DNA of 50,137 nt. Source: Meridianimarinicoccus zhengii (GTDB lineage Bacteria > Pseudomonadota > Alphaproteobacteria > Rhodobacterales > Rhodobacteraceae). This document shows, piece by piece, positions 2,838 to 31,417 of this stretch; position 1 is the first letter of the stretch; every line of letters begins with the position of its first letter. The translations under genes were made by a program, and so were the position numbers. The notes beneath the pieces were generated by a model. It saw nothing but the letters and a program-made list of their open reading frames with translations. It had not been told where the DNA came from and did no database searches. Where the stretch lies: contig NZ_QDFI01000028.1 of assembly GCF_003254465.1 (NCBI RefSeq), forward strand, positions 1-50,137, given 5' to 3'.

Positions 2838-3410
2838 ATGATCCGCAACGAGACATTGACACAGGCGGTGCTGCCGCAATCCGGCCTTGGCGCGAAGATC
2901 GCGCTCGTGGTGGCGGGGTCGCTGCTGGTGGCCGCATCCGCGCGGGCCGAGGTGCCCATGTACCCGGTGCCCATGTCGCTGCAGACGCTGGCGATCTCGC
3001 TGATCGGTCTGACCTATGGTGCGCGGCTCGCGGCCGTGACGCTGCTCGCCTATCTCGCACAGGGCGCCATGGGGCTGCCCGTGTTCGCGGGCGGGGCTGC
3101 CGGGGCGGCTTACATGATGGGGCCGACGGGCGGCTATCTTGTTGGTTTCGTTGGCATGGCTTGGCTCACCGGCTGGCTGGTGGAGCGCGGGCTGGGGCAG
3201 GGCGTGCTGCGCCTGTTCGCCGCCGCGCTGATCCCCGCGACGCTGCTGTTCGTGCCGGGTGTGGCATGGCTTTGGGCGATCACGCCGCTCGATCTGAATG
3301 GCGCCATCGCGGCGGGCGCGCTGCCGTTTCTGCTGGGCGGTCTGGTCAAGTCGGGCGTCGCGGCGATGATCGCGGCGGGCGGCTGGCAGGCGCTGAAGGC
3401 GCGCGGCTGA
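2838..3410 (+). CDS. bioY: Biotin transporter substrate-binding subunit BioY
   Basis: A 190-residue, highly hydrophobic S-component of an ECF-type biotin transporter with about six membrane segments. It shows the BioY signature around GLPVFAGG...GPTGGYLVGF (about residues 75-105). The start at 2838 has GAGG six bases upstream; an ATG four codons earlier overlaps that site and is rejected. No bioM or bioN (ECF ATPase and T-component) is next to it, so it is either a solitary BioY or is served by a module elsewhere. I see no BioR-type TTATnnATAA operator upstream. A strong terminator follows directly. Confidence 0.93.
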   Translation: MIRNETLTQAVLPQSGLGAKIALVVAGSLLVAASARAEVPMYPVPMSLQTLAISLIGLTYGARLAAVTLLAYLAQGAMGLPVFAGGAAGAAYMMGPTGGYLVGFVGMAWLTGWLVERGLGQGVLRLFAAALIPATLLFVPGVAWLWAITPLDLNGAIAAGALPFLLGGLVKSGVAAMIAAGGWQALKARG

Positions 3411-3463: not shown

Positions 3464-3477
3464 CGTGTCGGAAACGT

Positions 3478-3543
3478 GTAGGAGACCTGTAGGAGTCCCG
3501 TAGGAGTCGCATATGAATTTCATATGACTCCCGTATGACCCGT
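3478..3543 (+). repeat. Six 11-bp units, CATATGACTC-type array upstream of radA
   Basis: Six consecutive units have an exact 11-bp period. The first three resemble GTAGGAGTCCC and the last three resemble ATATGACTCCC. The block lies between the bioY terminator and the radA start, ending about 55 bases before the ATG. GANTC sites occur at 3493-3497, 3504-3508 and 3526-3530, which is exactly one and then two periods apart. A shorter array of the same unit in the same sense orientation occurs at 30572-30615. Function is unknown. Eleven base pairs is close to one DNA helical turn, which suggests binding of a repeated protein on one face of the helix. Confidence 0.85.
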
Positions 3544-3598
3544 GTCGGCCTTCGGCGCGGGCTTGCGGCCTGTCCGCGGCTGGGGCATGGCGGGGACC

Positions 3599-4969
3599 AT
3601 GGCAAAACCGATGACCCATACCTGCACCGCCTGCGGCGCGGCCCATGCCAAGTGGTCCGGGCGCTGCGACGCCTGCGGTGCATGGAACACCATCGTCGAG
3701 GACCAGCCGCTGACTGCCGGGCCCGGACCGGGGCGCGGCGCGGGCGGGCTGGTGCGCGGCAAGGCCGTGGCGCTCGTGCCGCTGACGGGCGAGGACGCGC
3801 CGCCGCCGCGCACGGAGTCGCGGGTGGCGGAGCTGGACCGAGTGCTGGGCGGCGGGCTGGTGCCTGCCTCGGCCACGCTGGTGGGCGGCGATCCCGGCAT
3901 CGGGAAATCGACGCTGCTGCTGCAGGCGGCGGCGGCGTTTTCCCGCCGGGGTCTGGCGACCGTCTATGTCTCGGGCGAGGAATCGACCGCGCAGGTGCGG
4001 ATGCGCGCCGCGCGGCTGGGGCTGGCCGATGCCGCCGTGCGGCTGGCGGCGGAAACGAACCTGCGCGATATCCTGACGACGCTGGAGACGGAGGCCCCGG
4101 CGCTGGTGATCGTCGATTCGATCCAGACCATGTGGCTCGATACCGTGGACTCGGCGCCGGGGTCGGTGTCGCAGGTCCGCGCGGTGGCGCATGAATTGAC
4201 GACCTTCGCCAAGCGGCGCGGGATCGCGGTGGTGCTGGTCGGGCACGTGACCAAGGACGGCCAGATCGCCGGGCCGCGCGTGGTCGAGCACATGGTCGAT
4301 ACGGTGCTCTATTTCGAGGGCGAACGGGGGCATCCGTTCCGCATCCTGCGCAGCGTCAAGAACCGCTTCGGCCCCGCGGACGAGATCGGCGTGTTCGAGA
4401 TGACCGGCAAGGGGCTGGCGCAGGTCGCCAACCCGTCGGCGCTGTTCCTCGCCGACCGGGGCTCGCCTGCCGCCGGGTCGGCGGTGTTCGCGGGGATCGA
4501 GGGCACGCGGCCCGTGCTCTGCGAATTCCAGGCGCTGATCGCGCCCGCGCCCCATGGCTCCCCCCGCCGCAGCGTCGTGGGCTGGGATGGCGGGCGGCTG
4601 GCGATGATCCTCGCGGTGCTGGAATCGCGCGCGGGCATCCCCTTCGCGGGGCTCGACGTCTATCTCAACGTGGCCGGCGGGTTGCGGGTGTCCGAGCCTG
4701 CGGCGGATCTGGCGGTGGCCGCGGCGCTGCTGTCCGCGCGCGAGGACATCGCCCTGCCGCCCGAGACGGTGGTTTTCGGCGAGATCAGCCTGTCCGGCGC
4801 GGTCCGTCCCGTCACGCAGGCGGAAAACAGGTTGAAAGAGGCGGAGAAACTTGGTTTTTCCAAGGCGATCCTGCCCGCGGGGGGCAAGGGCGTGGCGAGT
4901 GCCGCGATGCAACTGTCCCCGCAGGCCGATCTGACCGGCTTTGTCGGTGATATTTTCGGGGCCGGTTAG
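3599..4969 (+). CDS. radA: DNA repair protein RadA
   Basis: A 456-residue RecA-like branch-migration ATPase that processes recombination intermediates. It shows in order a C4 zinc finger (Cys9, Cys12, Cys23, Cys26), Walker A GGDPGIGKST (about 96-105), Walker B LVIVDS (about 169-174), the RadA-specific KNRFG motif (254-258) and a C-terminal Lon-protease-like domain. In-frame ATGs exist at 3587 and 3611; 3599 gives the family-standard N-terminus just ahead of the zinc finger. The gene is followed by cvpA after about 20 bases, a common order in Rhodobacterales. The 11-bp array upstream lies in its likely promoter or leader. Confidence 0.95.
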   Translation: MAKPMTHTCTACGAAHAKWSGRCDACGAWNTIVEDQPLTAGPGPGRGAGGLVRGKAVALVPLTGEDAPPPRTESRVAELDRVLGGGLVPASATLVGGDPGIGKSTLLLQAAAAFSRRGLATVYVSGEESTAQVRMRAARLGLADAAVRLAAETNLRDILTTLETEAPALVIVDSIQTMWLDTVDSAPGSVSQVRAVAHELTTFAKRRGIAVVLVGHVTKDGQIAGPRVVEHMVDTVLYFEGERGHPFRILRSVKNRFGPADEIGVFEMTGKGLAQVANPSALFLADRGSPAAGSAVFAGIEGTRPVLCEFQALIAPAPHGSPRRSVVGWDGGRLAMILAVLESRAGIPFAGLDVYLNVAGGLRVSEPAADLAVAAALLSAREDIALPPETVVFGEISLSGAVRPVTQAENRLKEAEKLGFSKAILPAGGKGVASAAMQLSPQADLTGFVGDIFGAG

Positions 4970-16178: not shown

Positions 16179-16775
16179 CTATCGCCGCCGGTCGCGCCGA
16201 GCGCTCATGGGTTGGAAGGCGACGCCGACATGGGCTTCGCAATAGGGTTTGCCCTGTTCCACCGGGAGCCCGCAGAACCAGAAATTCGGCGTGGCCGGAT
16301 CGCCGATGGGCCATTTGCAGGTCCGTTCCGTCAGTTCCATCAGCGACAGCCGCTTGGCGCGTTTCTCGACTTCGCGCTGGGAGGCGAGGGCCTCGGGGCT
16401 GATCTCGTTCGCGGATGGCTGCGGCGGCAGCGGCTGGCCCGCAGGGATGATCTGGCGTCGTGCGGGCACGGAGGGGCGAGGGGCGGTCTCGACCGGGGCG
16501 GGGTCCGGGTGCGCCGCGGGGGCGGCGGTATCGGCCGCGGTGGCAGCCGGTGCCGTGTCGGGGGCCACGGTCTCGGTCACGGGCGCGGGCTGGGCCTCGG
16601 CCGGATCGCCGGCCGGTGCGGCGCCGCCGGTGCGGTTCGACAGGCCCAGCCGATGGACCTTTCCGATGACGGCATTGCGTGTCACACCGCCAAGTTCCTT
16701 GGCGATCTGGCTGGCGCTCTGGCCGTCGGCCCACATCTTCTTCAGCGTCTCGACGCGGTCTTCGGTCCAGGACAT
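16179..16775 (-). CDS. gcrA: Cell cycle regulator GcrA
   Basis: A 198-residue alphaproteobacterial sigma70 co-activator. The N-terminal helix-turn-helix (MSWTEDRVETLKKMW...VTRNAVIGKVHRLGL, residues 1-45) is the GcrA DNA-binding domain. A long Ala/Pro/Thr-rich linker (about 50-125) leads to the C-terminal sigma-interacting domain with TCKWPIGDP and the cysteine-rich FWFCGLP...YCEAH. In Caulobacter GcrA recognises promoters methylated at GANTC by CcrM. No GANTC site is visible in the roughly 90 bases upstream of this gene. Confidence 0.93.
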   Translation of the reverse strand: MSWTEDRVETLKKMWADGQSASQIAKELGGVTRNAVIGKVHRLGLSNRTGGAAPAGDPAEAQPAPVTETVAPDTAPAATAADTAAPAAHPDPAPVETAPRPSVPARRQIIPAGQPLPPQPSANEISPEALASQREVEKRAKRLSLMELTERTCKWPIGDPATPNFWFCGLPVEQGKPYCEAHVGVAFQPMSARRDRRR

Positions 16776-24915: not shown

Positions 24916-25001
24916 GTCATGCCATGTCGCGCAGGGTCCGCTGGCACAGCCATACCGGCACGCGAGCAGTCGCATCTGAAAAATCGGGAAACGGATCATC
25001 C

Positions 25002-25076
25002 TGGAGCGGGCGATGAGATTCGAACTCACGACCCTTACCTTGGCAAGGTAATGCTCTACCCCTGAGCTACGCCCGC
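25002..25076 (-). tRNA. tRNA-Gly (anticodon GCC), downstream copy
   Basis: A 75-base tRNA with encoded CCA. The acceptor stem GCGGGCG pairs with CGCCCGC. The D-arm contains AGCTCAGGGGTAGAGC, the anticodon GCC is at 25042-25044 (read on the minus strand), and the T-loop is TTCGAAT. It is the second of two tandem glycine tRNAs. Its T-stem is GTGAG/CTCAT. Confidence 0.97.
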
Positions 25077-25097
25077 GTCCGGATGCCGGTCTCTTCC

Positions 25098-25172
25098 TGG
25101 AGCGGGCGAGGCGATTCGAACGCCCGACCCTTACCTTGGCAAGGTAATGCTCTACCCCTGAGCTACGCCCGC
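25098..25172 (-). tRNA. tRNA-Gly (anticodon GCC), upstream copy
   Basis: A 75-base tRNA with encoded CCA, 21 bases upstream of the other copy and probably co-transcribed with it. The anticodon GCC is at 25138-25140. Acceptor, D and anticodon arms are identical to the other copy. The T-stem differs (GGGCG/CGCCT) by paired changes that keep the stem intact. Confidence 0.97.
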
Positions 25173-29844: not shown

Positions 29845-30555
29845 TCAGCCCCCCAGGAAACTGCGGCGGACCTCGGGATCGGCCAGCAAGGCCGCCCCGG
29901 TGTCGGTGTAACGGTTGCGCCCCTGCACCAGCACATAGCCGGTGTCGGCGATCTCCAGCGCCTGCCGGGCGTTCTGTTCCACCATCAGGATGGAAATGCC
30001 CGTCCGCGCCACCTCGATGATGCGGTCGAACAACTCGTCCATCACGATGGGGCTGACCCCGGCGGTGGGTTCGTCCAGCATCAAAAGCCGCGGATGGGTC
30101 ATCAACGCGCGCCCGACCGCGACCTGCTGGCGCTGCCCGCCCGACAACTCGCCCGCGTGCTGGTGGCGCTTGTCTTTCAGGATCGGGAACAGGTCATAGA
30201 CCTGCGCGATGGTGTCGGCGATGTCGTCGCGCCGCAGGAAGCCCCCCATCTCCAGGTTCTCCTGCACGGTCATCGTCGGAAAGATGTTGCGGACCTGCGG
30301 CACGAAGCCCATGCCCGCCGCCACCCGGTCCTGCGGCGTGAGCCCCGTGATGTCCCGCCCGTCGAGCGTGACCGTGCCCGCGCGCAGCGGCAGCATCCCG
30401 AAGACGGCCTTCATGGCGGTGGACTTGCCCGCGCCGTTGGGGCCGACGATCACCGCGATCTCGCCCCGCGCGACGGTGATGGTAAGGTCATGCAGAATGT
30501 CCGCAGCGCCATAGCCGCCGGTCATGCCGCGCGCGTCAAGGAAGGGCGCGGTCAT
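29845..30555 (-). CDS. livF: Branched-chain amino acid ABC transporter ATPase LivF
   Basis: A 236-residue ABC ATPase. Walker A is GPNGAGKST (about 38-46), Q-loop FVPQVRNIF, signature LSGGQRQQ (about 136-143), Walker B LLMLDEPTAG and switch His/Gln in VEQNA, as in LivF proteins. It is separated from livG by 73 bases that hold an 11-bp repeat array. Downstream, three small genes lie between it and livH. Confidence 0.95.
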   Translation of the reverse strand: MTAPFLDARGMTGGYGAADILHDLTITVARGEIAVIVGPNGAGKSTAMKAVFGMLPLRAGTVTLDGRDITGLTPQDRVAAGMGFVPQVRNIFPTMTVQENLEMGGFLRRDDIADTIAQVYDLFPILKDKRHQHAGELSGGQRQQVAVGRALMTHPRLLMLDEPTAGVSPIVMDELFDRIIEVARTGISILMVEQNARQALEIADTGYVLVQGRNRYTDTGAALLADPEVRRSFLGG

Positions 30556-30571
30556 GGGCGAACCCGCTTCG

Positions 30572-30615
30572 GAGTCATATGCGAGTCATATGAAAGTAAT
30601 ATGCGATTCATATGC
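30572..30615 (-). repeat. Four 11-bp units, CATATGACTC-type array upstream of livF
   Basis: Read on the coding strand of livF, four consecutive 11-bp units resemble GCATATGACTC (variants end in AATC, ACTT and ACTC). The array ends 16 bases before the livF ATG, in the gap after livG. On the plus strand GANTC sites start at 30572, 30583 and 30605, one and two periods apart; the unit at 30594 lacks it. This is the same unit, period, orientation and GANTC spacing as the array at 3478-3543. Confidence 0.85.
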
Positions 30616-30628
30616 ACGGGAACGACCG

Positions 30629-31417
30629 TCACGACGCTGCCCCCGCCTGCACCTTGTTCTTCAACCCAGTGCCAAGATAGGCCTCGATCACCGCCTCGTT
30701 CGCCTTGATCTCGTCGATGCTGCCCTCTGCCAGCACCTTGCCCTCGGCCATGCAGATGACCGGGTCGCACAGCCGCCCGATGAATTGCATGTCATGCTCG
30801 ATCATGCAGAAGGTGTAACCTCTCTCGACGTTTAGCCGCCGTATTGCATCCCCGATCGTGTTCAGCAGCGTGCGGTTCACGCCCGCGCCGACCTCGTCCA
30901 GGAACACGATCTTGGCGTCCACCATCATCGTCCGGCCGAGCTCCAGCAGCTTCTTCTGCCCGCCCGACAGGTTCCCGGCCTTTTCATCCGCAAGATGGTC
31001 GATGGTCAGGAATTCAAGAACTTCGCGGGCTTTCTTCATCAAGGACCGCTCTTCCTCGGCGATCAGTGCCCGCTTGAACCAGGCGTTCCACAGCGTCTCG
31101 CCGGCCTGGTGCCCCGGCACGACCATCAGGTTCTCCGCGACCGTCATGGAGCTGAATTCATGGGCGATCTGGAACGTCCGCAGCAGCCCGCGATGGAACA
31201 ACTCATGCGGCGGCAGCCCGGTGATGTCGTCCCCGCCCATGGTGACGCGCCCCGAGGTCGGTTTCAGAACACCCGCGATCACGTTGAAAAGCGTGGTCTT
31301 TCCGGCGCCGTTCGGGCCGATCAGCCCGGTGATGGACCCGTCCCGTATGGTCAGGCTCGCGCCGTCCACGGCGTGAAACCCGCCGAAATGCTTGTGCAGA
31401 TCGTCCACCGCGATCAT
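30629..31417 (-). CDS. livG: Branched-chain amino acid ABC transporter ATPase LivG
   Basis: A 262-residue ABC ATPase with Walker A GPNGAGKTT (about 34-42), signature LSGGQKK (about 149-155), Walker B IVFLDEVGAGVN and switch histidine in MIEHDM. The motif order and the extra region around residues 105-135 fit LivG rather than LivF. It follows livJ after a gap that holds a strong hairpin. Confidence 0.95.
   Translation of the reverse strand: MIAVDDLHKHFGGFHAVDGASLTIRDGSITGLIGPNGAGKTTLFNVIAGVLKPTSGRVTMGGDDITGLPPHELFHRGLLRTFQIAHEFSSMTVAENLMVVPGHQAGETLWNAWFKRALIAEEERSLMKKAREVLEFLTIDHLADEKAGNLSGGQKKLLELGRTMMVDAKIVFLDEVGAGVNRTLLNTIGDAIRRLNVERGYTFCMIEHDMQFIGRLCDPVICMAEGKVLAEGSIDEIKANEAVIEAYLGTGLKNKVQAGAAS

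Follow-up and report, generated by a model that had tools for sequence, protein, structure and literature searches.

Omega of pSM19035, ParG of TP228 and Arc of P22 are small dimeric β-α-α proteins with repeated operator sites; Arc half-sites lie about 11 bp apart, and omega binds heptad repeats. Short tandem units in arrays dispersed between genes are also found in the cyanobacterial STRR sequences, which are heptamers, and to our knowledge neither a cognate binding protein nor positional conservation across genera has been described for these. SlmA and Noc, two proteins with folds other than ribbon-helix-helix, use dispersed, non-tandem sites. According to a passage of PMC4117426, SlmA sites are dispersed and more abundant near the origin. 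MatP is presented in part of PMC12756933 as a ribbon-helix-helix (RHH)-containing organiser with over 20 dispersed matS sites. Passages of PMC5016525 describe type Ib partition proteins that double as repressors, and RHH repressors that are autoregulated through repeated sites upstream of their own operon. For Apl of phage 186, a section of PMC7498355 describes direct repeats one helical turn (10–11 bp) apart and highly cooperative binding.

The arrays reported here are tandem 11-bp units dispersed between genes of a Rhodobacteraceae genome, and their candidate reader is a protein of the antitoxin family BrnA. As with omega, ParG and Arc, the candidate would be a small dimeric β-α-α protein with repeated operator sites, but here there are about 52 arrays chromosome-wide, the core thought to be recognised differs among species, and no ParA or toxin partner was found among the few neighbours of the gene that were scanned. 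As in BrnTA, its RHH domain matches the BrnA family (PF14384), all six gene copies scoring above the curated cutoff; unlike in BrnTA, there is no BrnT toxin gene immediately upstream of the two copies in the genome under study, where LepA and an ABM monooxygenase are found instead. The number of sites is of the same order as for MatP, whereas matS lies in the Ter region and the present arrays are four-unit direct repeats, absent from the presumed terminus side in one genome (G049). The arrays are dispersed like SlmA and Noc sites. Apl operators work as we propose for these arrays, but they belong to a phage excisionase and to two loci, not to a whole chromosome. The likeness to STRR sequences lies in tandem short units dispersed between genes; by our own criterion, the arrays differ from a freely spreading repeat of that type in that positions common to lineages exceed background, for a minority of arrays only. 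Text searches of the open-licence literature, judged from titles and the opening lines of abstracts, gave no account of such arrays or of RHH proteins in Rhodobacteraceae.

The window, a stretch of 50,137 nucleotides from Meridianimarinicoccus zhengii (genome G000, 4.6 Mb in 220 contigs), contains two arrays and the following genes:

2838..3410, plus strand: bioY (PF02632), upstream neighbour of the radA array
3467..3554, plus strand: 11-bp array between the bioY terminator and radA, with six clean units and degenerate edge units
3587..4969, plus strand: radA, downstream neighbour of the array, with AAA/KaiC-type ATPase, zinc ribbon and ChlI-like domains; named from domain content and the initial annotation
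16182-16775, minus strand: GcrA gene (PF07750, E 2.3e-46)
29845..30555, minus strand: livF, ABC ATPase by Pfam, downstream of the second array; named from the initial annotation and position
30570..30613, minus strand: four-unit array in the livG–livF gap, sense with the operon
30629..31417, minus strand: livG, branched-chain amino acid ABC ATPase, upstream of the second array

The initial annotation had described six units of exact 11-bp period at 3478-3543, three of them with GANTC sites at offsets 0, 11 and 33, and the sequence bears this out: six in-phase 11-mers (GTAGGAGACCT GTAGGAGTCCC GTAGGAGTCGC ATATGAATTTC ATATGACTCCC GTATGACCCGT) carry GANTC at 3493, 3504 and 3526, and degenerate units lengthen the array to about 3467-3554. 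The Pfam match likewise supports the GcrA gene that had been placed in the window. Both window arrays have the same sense orientation, as had been claimed; this does not extend to the family, whose arrays lie in all orientations. The radA array is poorly conserved: all that the congener G150 keeps is one or two remnant units past the bioY terminator, and G149 has none. The array had no blastn match in 72,556 plasmid records with the low-complexity filter on. Elsewhere in the window, 24999-25172 is a 96-bp tandem duplication (period 96, 1.8 copies, 94% match) that by eye resembles two tRNA-Gly genes.

Across the genome, the pattern RTATGA-N5-RTATGA gave 122 matches and a reversed-pattern control gave 0, indicating that the arrays are not due to chance. 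The 50 stretches covering these matches contain 52 arrays with at least two RTATGA units each, 240 units in all, after locus L044 (a chance match) and second-strand duplicates in L063 and L067 had been left out. The proposal of a genomic family, and not two arrays only, is thus upheld. Four units are the rule (27 arrays), followed by five (16), six (4), seven (2), three (2) and eight (1). Self-similarity in these loci, which were chosen for their arrays, gave 44 hits at period 11, 6 at period 22 and 0 at periods 7, 8, 10, 13, 14, 16, 17, 19 and 20. The consensus unit is RTMKGA followed by five looser bases: among the 240 units, T occupies position 2 in 240, A or C position 3 in 238, T or G position 4 in 237, G position 5 in 239 and A position 6 in 227, counts that are partly built in, since the rule for extending array ends demanded T at the second position and a match to five of the six core letters. 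The commonest linkers depend on unit index, with ATCGC first (11 of 52), CTTTC second (13), CTCCC third (13) and CTCCG fourth (7 of 50). The junction step between units is CA in 70 cases, CG in 65, TG in 46, GG in 5, GA in 2 and TA in 0, where 17.8 TA junctions were expected among C/T–A/G steps. TA is never seen even though T often precedes the junction and A often follows it; it does occur in the RTCGGA arrays of G177.

Genes around the 52 arrays were called with a simple in-house gene caller. Nearly all arrays are intergenic, 2 lying inside a called reading frame. Twenty-three are antisense and 9 sense to both neighbours, so that antisense is favoured in codirectional gaps (binomial p 0.02), while 11 lie between convergent and 7 between divergent genes; a stop codon is no more than 30 bp away from 31 arrays, and a called start codon from 12. 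The commonest Pfam family among the 104 flanking proteins matches 4 of them, and the neighbours examined one by one are of unrelated kinds (argininosuccinate synthase, a LeuD-like Aconitase_C protein, MurB, PdxA, an rRNA dimethylase, CobN, transporters and others). Placement thus looks like that of intergenic space in general and not like a regulon.

Several candidate explanations were discarded. The flanking genes were rejected as a regulon because they have no common function. A KOPS-like marking of replication polarity does not fit array strands that are mixed within contigs, and a minigene chain built from overlapping ATG and TGA in RTATGA units does not fit the GTAGGA and RTCGGA dialects, which are without ATG. 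RNA hairpins between units were dropped, since by eye only CTTTC/ATTTC linkers would pair. As for a phage origin, a three-unit scan of viral contigs returned 88 stretches, and most of the 80 listed look by eye like low-GC or near-perfect microsatellites. One IMG/VR viral contig (L098) carries tandem 11-bp GTATGACTCCG/GTGTGACTCCA units.

The prevailing core varies by genome, with RTATGA, GTAGGA, RTCGGA and RTATGG dialects. Three exact RTATGA units were present in 3 of 7 genomes of the genus (67 matches in G000, 27 in G150 and 1 in G149) and, across the family, in 6 of 149 genera; a 400-kb sample of the congener G152 gave no three-unit match. RTCGGA arrays were found in 8 of 295 genera (G174 81, G064 52, G177 29, G126 8 and the other four 1-2 each), with one control match in each of two genomes. 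In most genera searched, none of the dialects tried gave a match. The core seen most often in G149 is GTAGGA (13 of 18 units, in fetched parts partly chosen for GTAGGA matches), and RTCGGA is the sole core in the fetched parts of G154 (12 of 12). The RTATGG dialect of G049 came to light upstream of leuD and proved to be genome-wide, with 38 matches against 0 for the control. Among the matches listed, records with four RTATGA units came from Rhodovulum marinum, Marinosulfonomonas, Actibacterium, Amylibacter, Maritimibacter and Poseidonocella; Bacteroidales and others matched as well, with arrays that look different. In the Bacteroidales MAG RGIG4882 (L205, L224, L243, L252), several contigs have 11-bp TCATAT units followed by ATATGA units, that is, inverted phased arrays, and other Bacteroidales have direct GTATGACTACT-like arrays; these may be a parallel system in another phylum. 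Arrays of the uncultured Rhodobacteraceae CAKZTM01 (L183, L184, L200, L206, L221) have a common conserved tail, GTGGTTAAG..GCGTTCGGTGAGGGTTTGG, as if they were part of a larger copied element.

Comparison of orthologous loci showed that the same site bears different dialects at livG–livF, murB and leuD. In the livG–livF gap, an RTATGA array that includes an odd ATATTA unit is common to G000 and G150, G149 has GTAAGA, GTAGGT and GTATGA units, and G154 has three ATCGGA units; the gap is empty of arrays in the congeners G152 and G153. The murB array keeps its side and orientation, with RTATGA in G000 and G150 and RTCGGA in G133 and G177. At leuD, RTATGA occurs in G000, G150 and two Rhodobacteraceae MAGs, and RTATGG, by coordinates, in G049. 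Beside the thioesterase–argG pair (L055), and likewise at L058, the RTATGA array of G000 and G150 corresponds to GTCGGA/GTAGGA units in G149. Two further arrays, beside genes named by eye, are common to G000 and Marinosulfonomonas (serS) and to G000, Marinosulfonomonas and Rhodovulum marinum (a gltD-like gene).

For 7 of 97 array-flanking genes, a homologue in another genus also adjoins an array, against 5 of 363 other genes of the same stretches (Fisher p 0.005); two of these five are syntenic neighbours, and the test without them gives p 0.001. Two of the seven are RHH paralogues matching one locus, and with these left out 5 of 95 remain (p 0.036, or p 0.012 against 3 of 361). Side and orientation agree in 6 of the seven cases, arr23 being the one that disagrees. 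Linkers of 14 orthologous G000 and G150 arrays agree at 0.70, against 0.62 for non-orthologous arrays (permutation p 0.0016), arr8 and arr50, where the G150 gap has at most two units, being left out. Whole units agree at 0.80 against 0.77 (p 0.03), and core letters are no more alike in orthologous than in non-orthologous arrays (0.88 and 0.89); a core identity of 0.91 for orthologous units was set aside as circular through the extension rule. The G150 regions were largely chosen for containing arrays, and counts there do not give a retention rate. Collectively, the positions common across genera and the retained linkers indicate that at least some arrays were inherited and not re-inserted. The system is patchy across relatives: among the best 30 of 61 genomes, a period-11 array lies upstream of leuD in G000 and G049, out of 29 usable loci, and upstream of serS in G000 alone, out of 25, loci in which the start was not found (1 for leuD, 5 for serS) being excluded. 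G019, one of the 61 but outside the best 30, has an array 79 bp from serS by coordinates and is counted as one genome with the Marinosulfonomonas record L274, whose contig positions it matches.

The likely reader of the arrays, judged from sequence and gene position, is an orphan RHH protein of the BrnA family, which accounts for 2 of the 104 proteins flanking G000 arrays. Six gene copies were found in five genomes of three dialects, one of them an uncultured Rhodobacteraceae MAG (K_MB387), and all lie directly downstream of an array in the dialect of their own genome:

L051:5119-5517, RHH gene in G000
L069:4501-4911, RHH gene in G000
L379, RHH gene in G150
L431, RHH gene in G177
L180, RHH gene in K_MB387
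L548, RHH gene in G049

In all the DNA gathered, much of it chosen around arrays, every tblastn hit to the protein (E up to 1e-3) has a two-unit core match at a distance of 46-233 bp. What was fetched of G177 and G049 comes to 13 and 12 stretches, each about 3 kb long, or some 1% of either genome, and an accidental encounter with the gene in so small a part is therefore unlikely. A profile search added one weak match (E 0.006), a BrnA-like frame in L066 with an array 1.6 kb away, and the fetched parts of G149, G154, Rhodovulum and other array-bearing genomes gave no RHH gene. At E 1e-3, the L069 protein was matched by none of 72,556 plasmid records and none of 50,697 phage records, and none of the 44 pattern stretches found in viral contigs with the RHH alignment was confirmed.

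The six copies resemble one another in promoter layout. The array reads toward the gene in 6 of 6, and TTAAC follows it at 22, 23, 22 and 22 bp in four copies and at 14 bp in G049; the K_MB387 promoter region has no TTAAC and has TTAAT instead. Array end and chosen start codon are 74, 73, 75, 73, 69 and 62 bp apart, several copies having other candidate starts. The presumed operators consist of four units in five copies, and of two units in phase with a third shifted by one base in G049. Within the protein, 13 of 18 invariant residues fall in positions 68-99, the presumed strand-helix-helix part, and an AlphaFold model of one protein, made from a single sequence, shows a β-α-α pattern with a mean pLDDT of 40. 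No NCBIfam model hit the RHH proteins at E 0.01, and a profile search of solved structures returned no RHH entry and two weak unrelated hits. The RHH fold is a prediction from the Pfam match and the modelled β-α-α pattern.

Genes adjoining the RHH gene (L051:5578-6912, L069:3144-4493 and L379:11903-13603) differ at each place. A KAP NTPase (by Pfam) is downstream of one G000 copy and an ORF without Pfam hit is beside the other, while an AAA-like frame was recognised by eye in G150; these genes look like accessory insertions. G177 and K_MB387, as read from their sequences, both have a divergent cold-shock-like frame upstream and a small YdcH-like frame beyond, a common layout that suggests an old locus.

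In RHH proteins, residues of the β strand face the DNA. The presumed DNA-contacting strand is VRVTLLL in genomes with RTATGA (G000, G150 and K_MB387), VKVTLML with RTCGGA (G177) and VKVTASF with RTATGG (G049), a pattern that would be expected from co-evolution of protein and site and that rests on three dialects. The two G000 paralogues also differ, the VRVTLLL copy adjoining ATATGA units and the VRITIRV copy GTATGA units. The first letter is sorted among the 52 G000 arrays more than expected by chance, with 12 all-A, 18 all-G and 22 mixed (dispersion 2.05, reached in 0 of 5000 shuffles). The 24 arrays in the parts of G150 obtained, where one RHH copy was found, show no such split (p 0.74).

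Collectively, the arrays are probably multi-unit operators of an orphan, autoregulated BrnA-family RHH protein. One RHH dimer would read one 11-bp unit through its β strand, and neighbouring dimers, one helical turn apart and on the same face of the DNA, would bind cooperatively and fill about four units. The protein would repress its own gene through the promoter array and have a structural role at non-promoter sites; changes in strand residues would alter the dialect, and the arrays would then follow. Among the roles suggested by the initial annotation, a binding array for an oligomeric protein appears to be the best reading. The occurrence of arrays in all gene orientations and beside functionally unrelated genes indicates that the protein is most likely a chromosome-wide organiser or nucleoid-associated protein and not a pathway regulator. 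The surprising part is the dialect switch.

Other readings account for part of these data. That the arrays are a proliferating intergenic tandem-repeat family, copied and homogenised in each genome, with the RHH gene merely near a copy, would agree with the patchy spread over genera, with index-specific linkers that suggest a common ancestral array and with the sites empty in G152 and G153; we consider it unlikely, given that cross-genus position and orientation agree above background, orthologous linkers are retained, and array–gene linkage and promoter layout recur in the six copies. RHH proteins are typically repressors, and a conventional regulon, in which this or another direct-repeat-binding regulator controls the adjacent genes, could explain the 12 arrays close to called starts, murB, leuD and livF included. 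The arrays between convergent genes, those antisense to both neighbours, the frequent proximity to stop codons and the lack of a common function among neighbours make a regulon quite improbable. A narrower version of the organiser reading would make the arrays origin-side sites for nucleoid occlusion, similar to those of SlmA or Noc. The 14 arrays on one contig of G049 leave 652-2032 kb empty, away from parS at 3239-3240 kb (largest gap p 0.014-0.021, KS p 0.030-0.035 for assumed lengths of 3.30-3.45 Mb), but this is one genome, tested after the gap had been noticed and with an assumed molecule length. The gap does contain, close to its end, a single two-unit match (2016 kb), which was omitted as likely chance, and in G049 about 1.3 Mb separates serS, a gene with an array in G000 and Marinosulfonomonas, from parS. 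Accordingly, we regard this version as very unlikely.

The remaining two readings place the signal in RNA or in methylation. An RNA-level element, acting in Rho loading, mRNA processing or translation control via 11-nt spacing, would suit the arrays near stop codons and the antisense preference in codirectional gaps; strict dialects, a four-unit modal length and use of both strands are unexpected for Rho sites, and arrays also occupy divergent gaps, so that we consider such an element highly improbable. The suggested RNA leader of radA does not carry over to a family whose arrays face both ways relative to genes and also lie between convergent ones, nor does a Shine-Dalgarno role, the GTAGGAG form being only one of several dialects. 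There seems to be hardly any chance that the arrays sense CcrM methylation read by GcrA, as the initial annotation had proposed. GANTC occurs in 152 of 240 units of G000 arrays, in contrast to its strong depletion over the entire window (52 sites, where dinucleotide shuffles predict about 196), and it is also frequent in arrays of G150 (62 of 96 units), G149 (9 of 18) and Rhodovulum marinum (25 of 58), with 7 of 24 in Marinosulfonomonas and 4 of 26 in G146/CAKZTM. The G000 count is, however, close to the single-position expectation (0.996 x 0.946 x 0.854 x 0.717 = 58%, about 138 units), and GANTC is absent or nearly so in G154 (0 of 12), G177 (1 of 39), G049 (0 of 38), Actibacterium (0 of 16) and Amylibacter (0 of 8). 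Thus five of ten other genomes or groups have GANTC in 15-65% of units and the other five in almost none, which shows that arrays exist and hold their period independently of GANTC: it accompanies some dialects and is not the conserved feature.

Returning to the orphan RHH protein as reader, a further possibility, which we put forward tentatively, is a new class of chromosome-organising system in which a self-controlled antitoxin-family protein would coat dozens of four-turn arrays, some positions being kept across genera, protein and sites switching dialect together and sites tending to avoid the terminus. If true, one small protein and some fifty chromosomal sites would have changed their recognition sequence together more than once in one family, while sites at some genes stayed put. 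Natural comparison could then be used to test how a multi-site protein evolves its DNA-recognition specificity, and the antitoxin family, known for antidotes to toxins, would have a chromosome-scale role.
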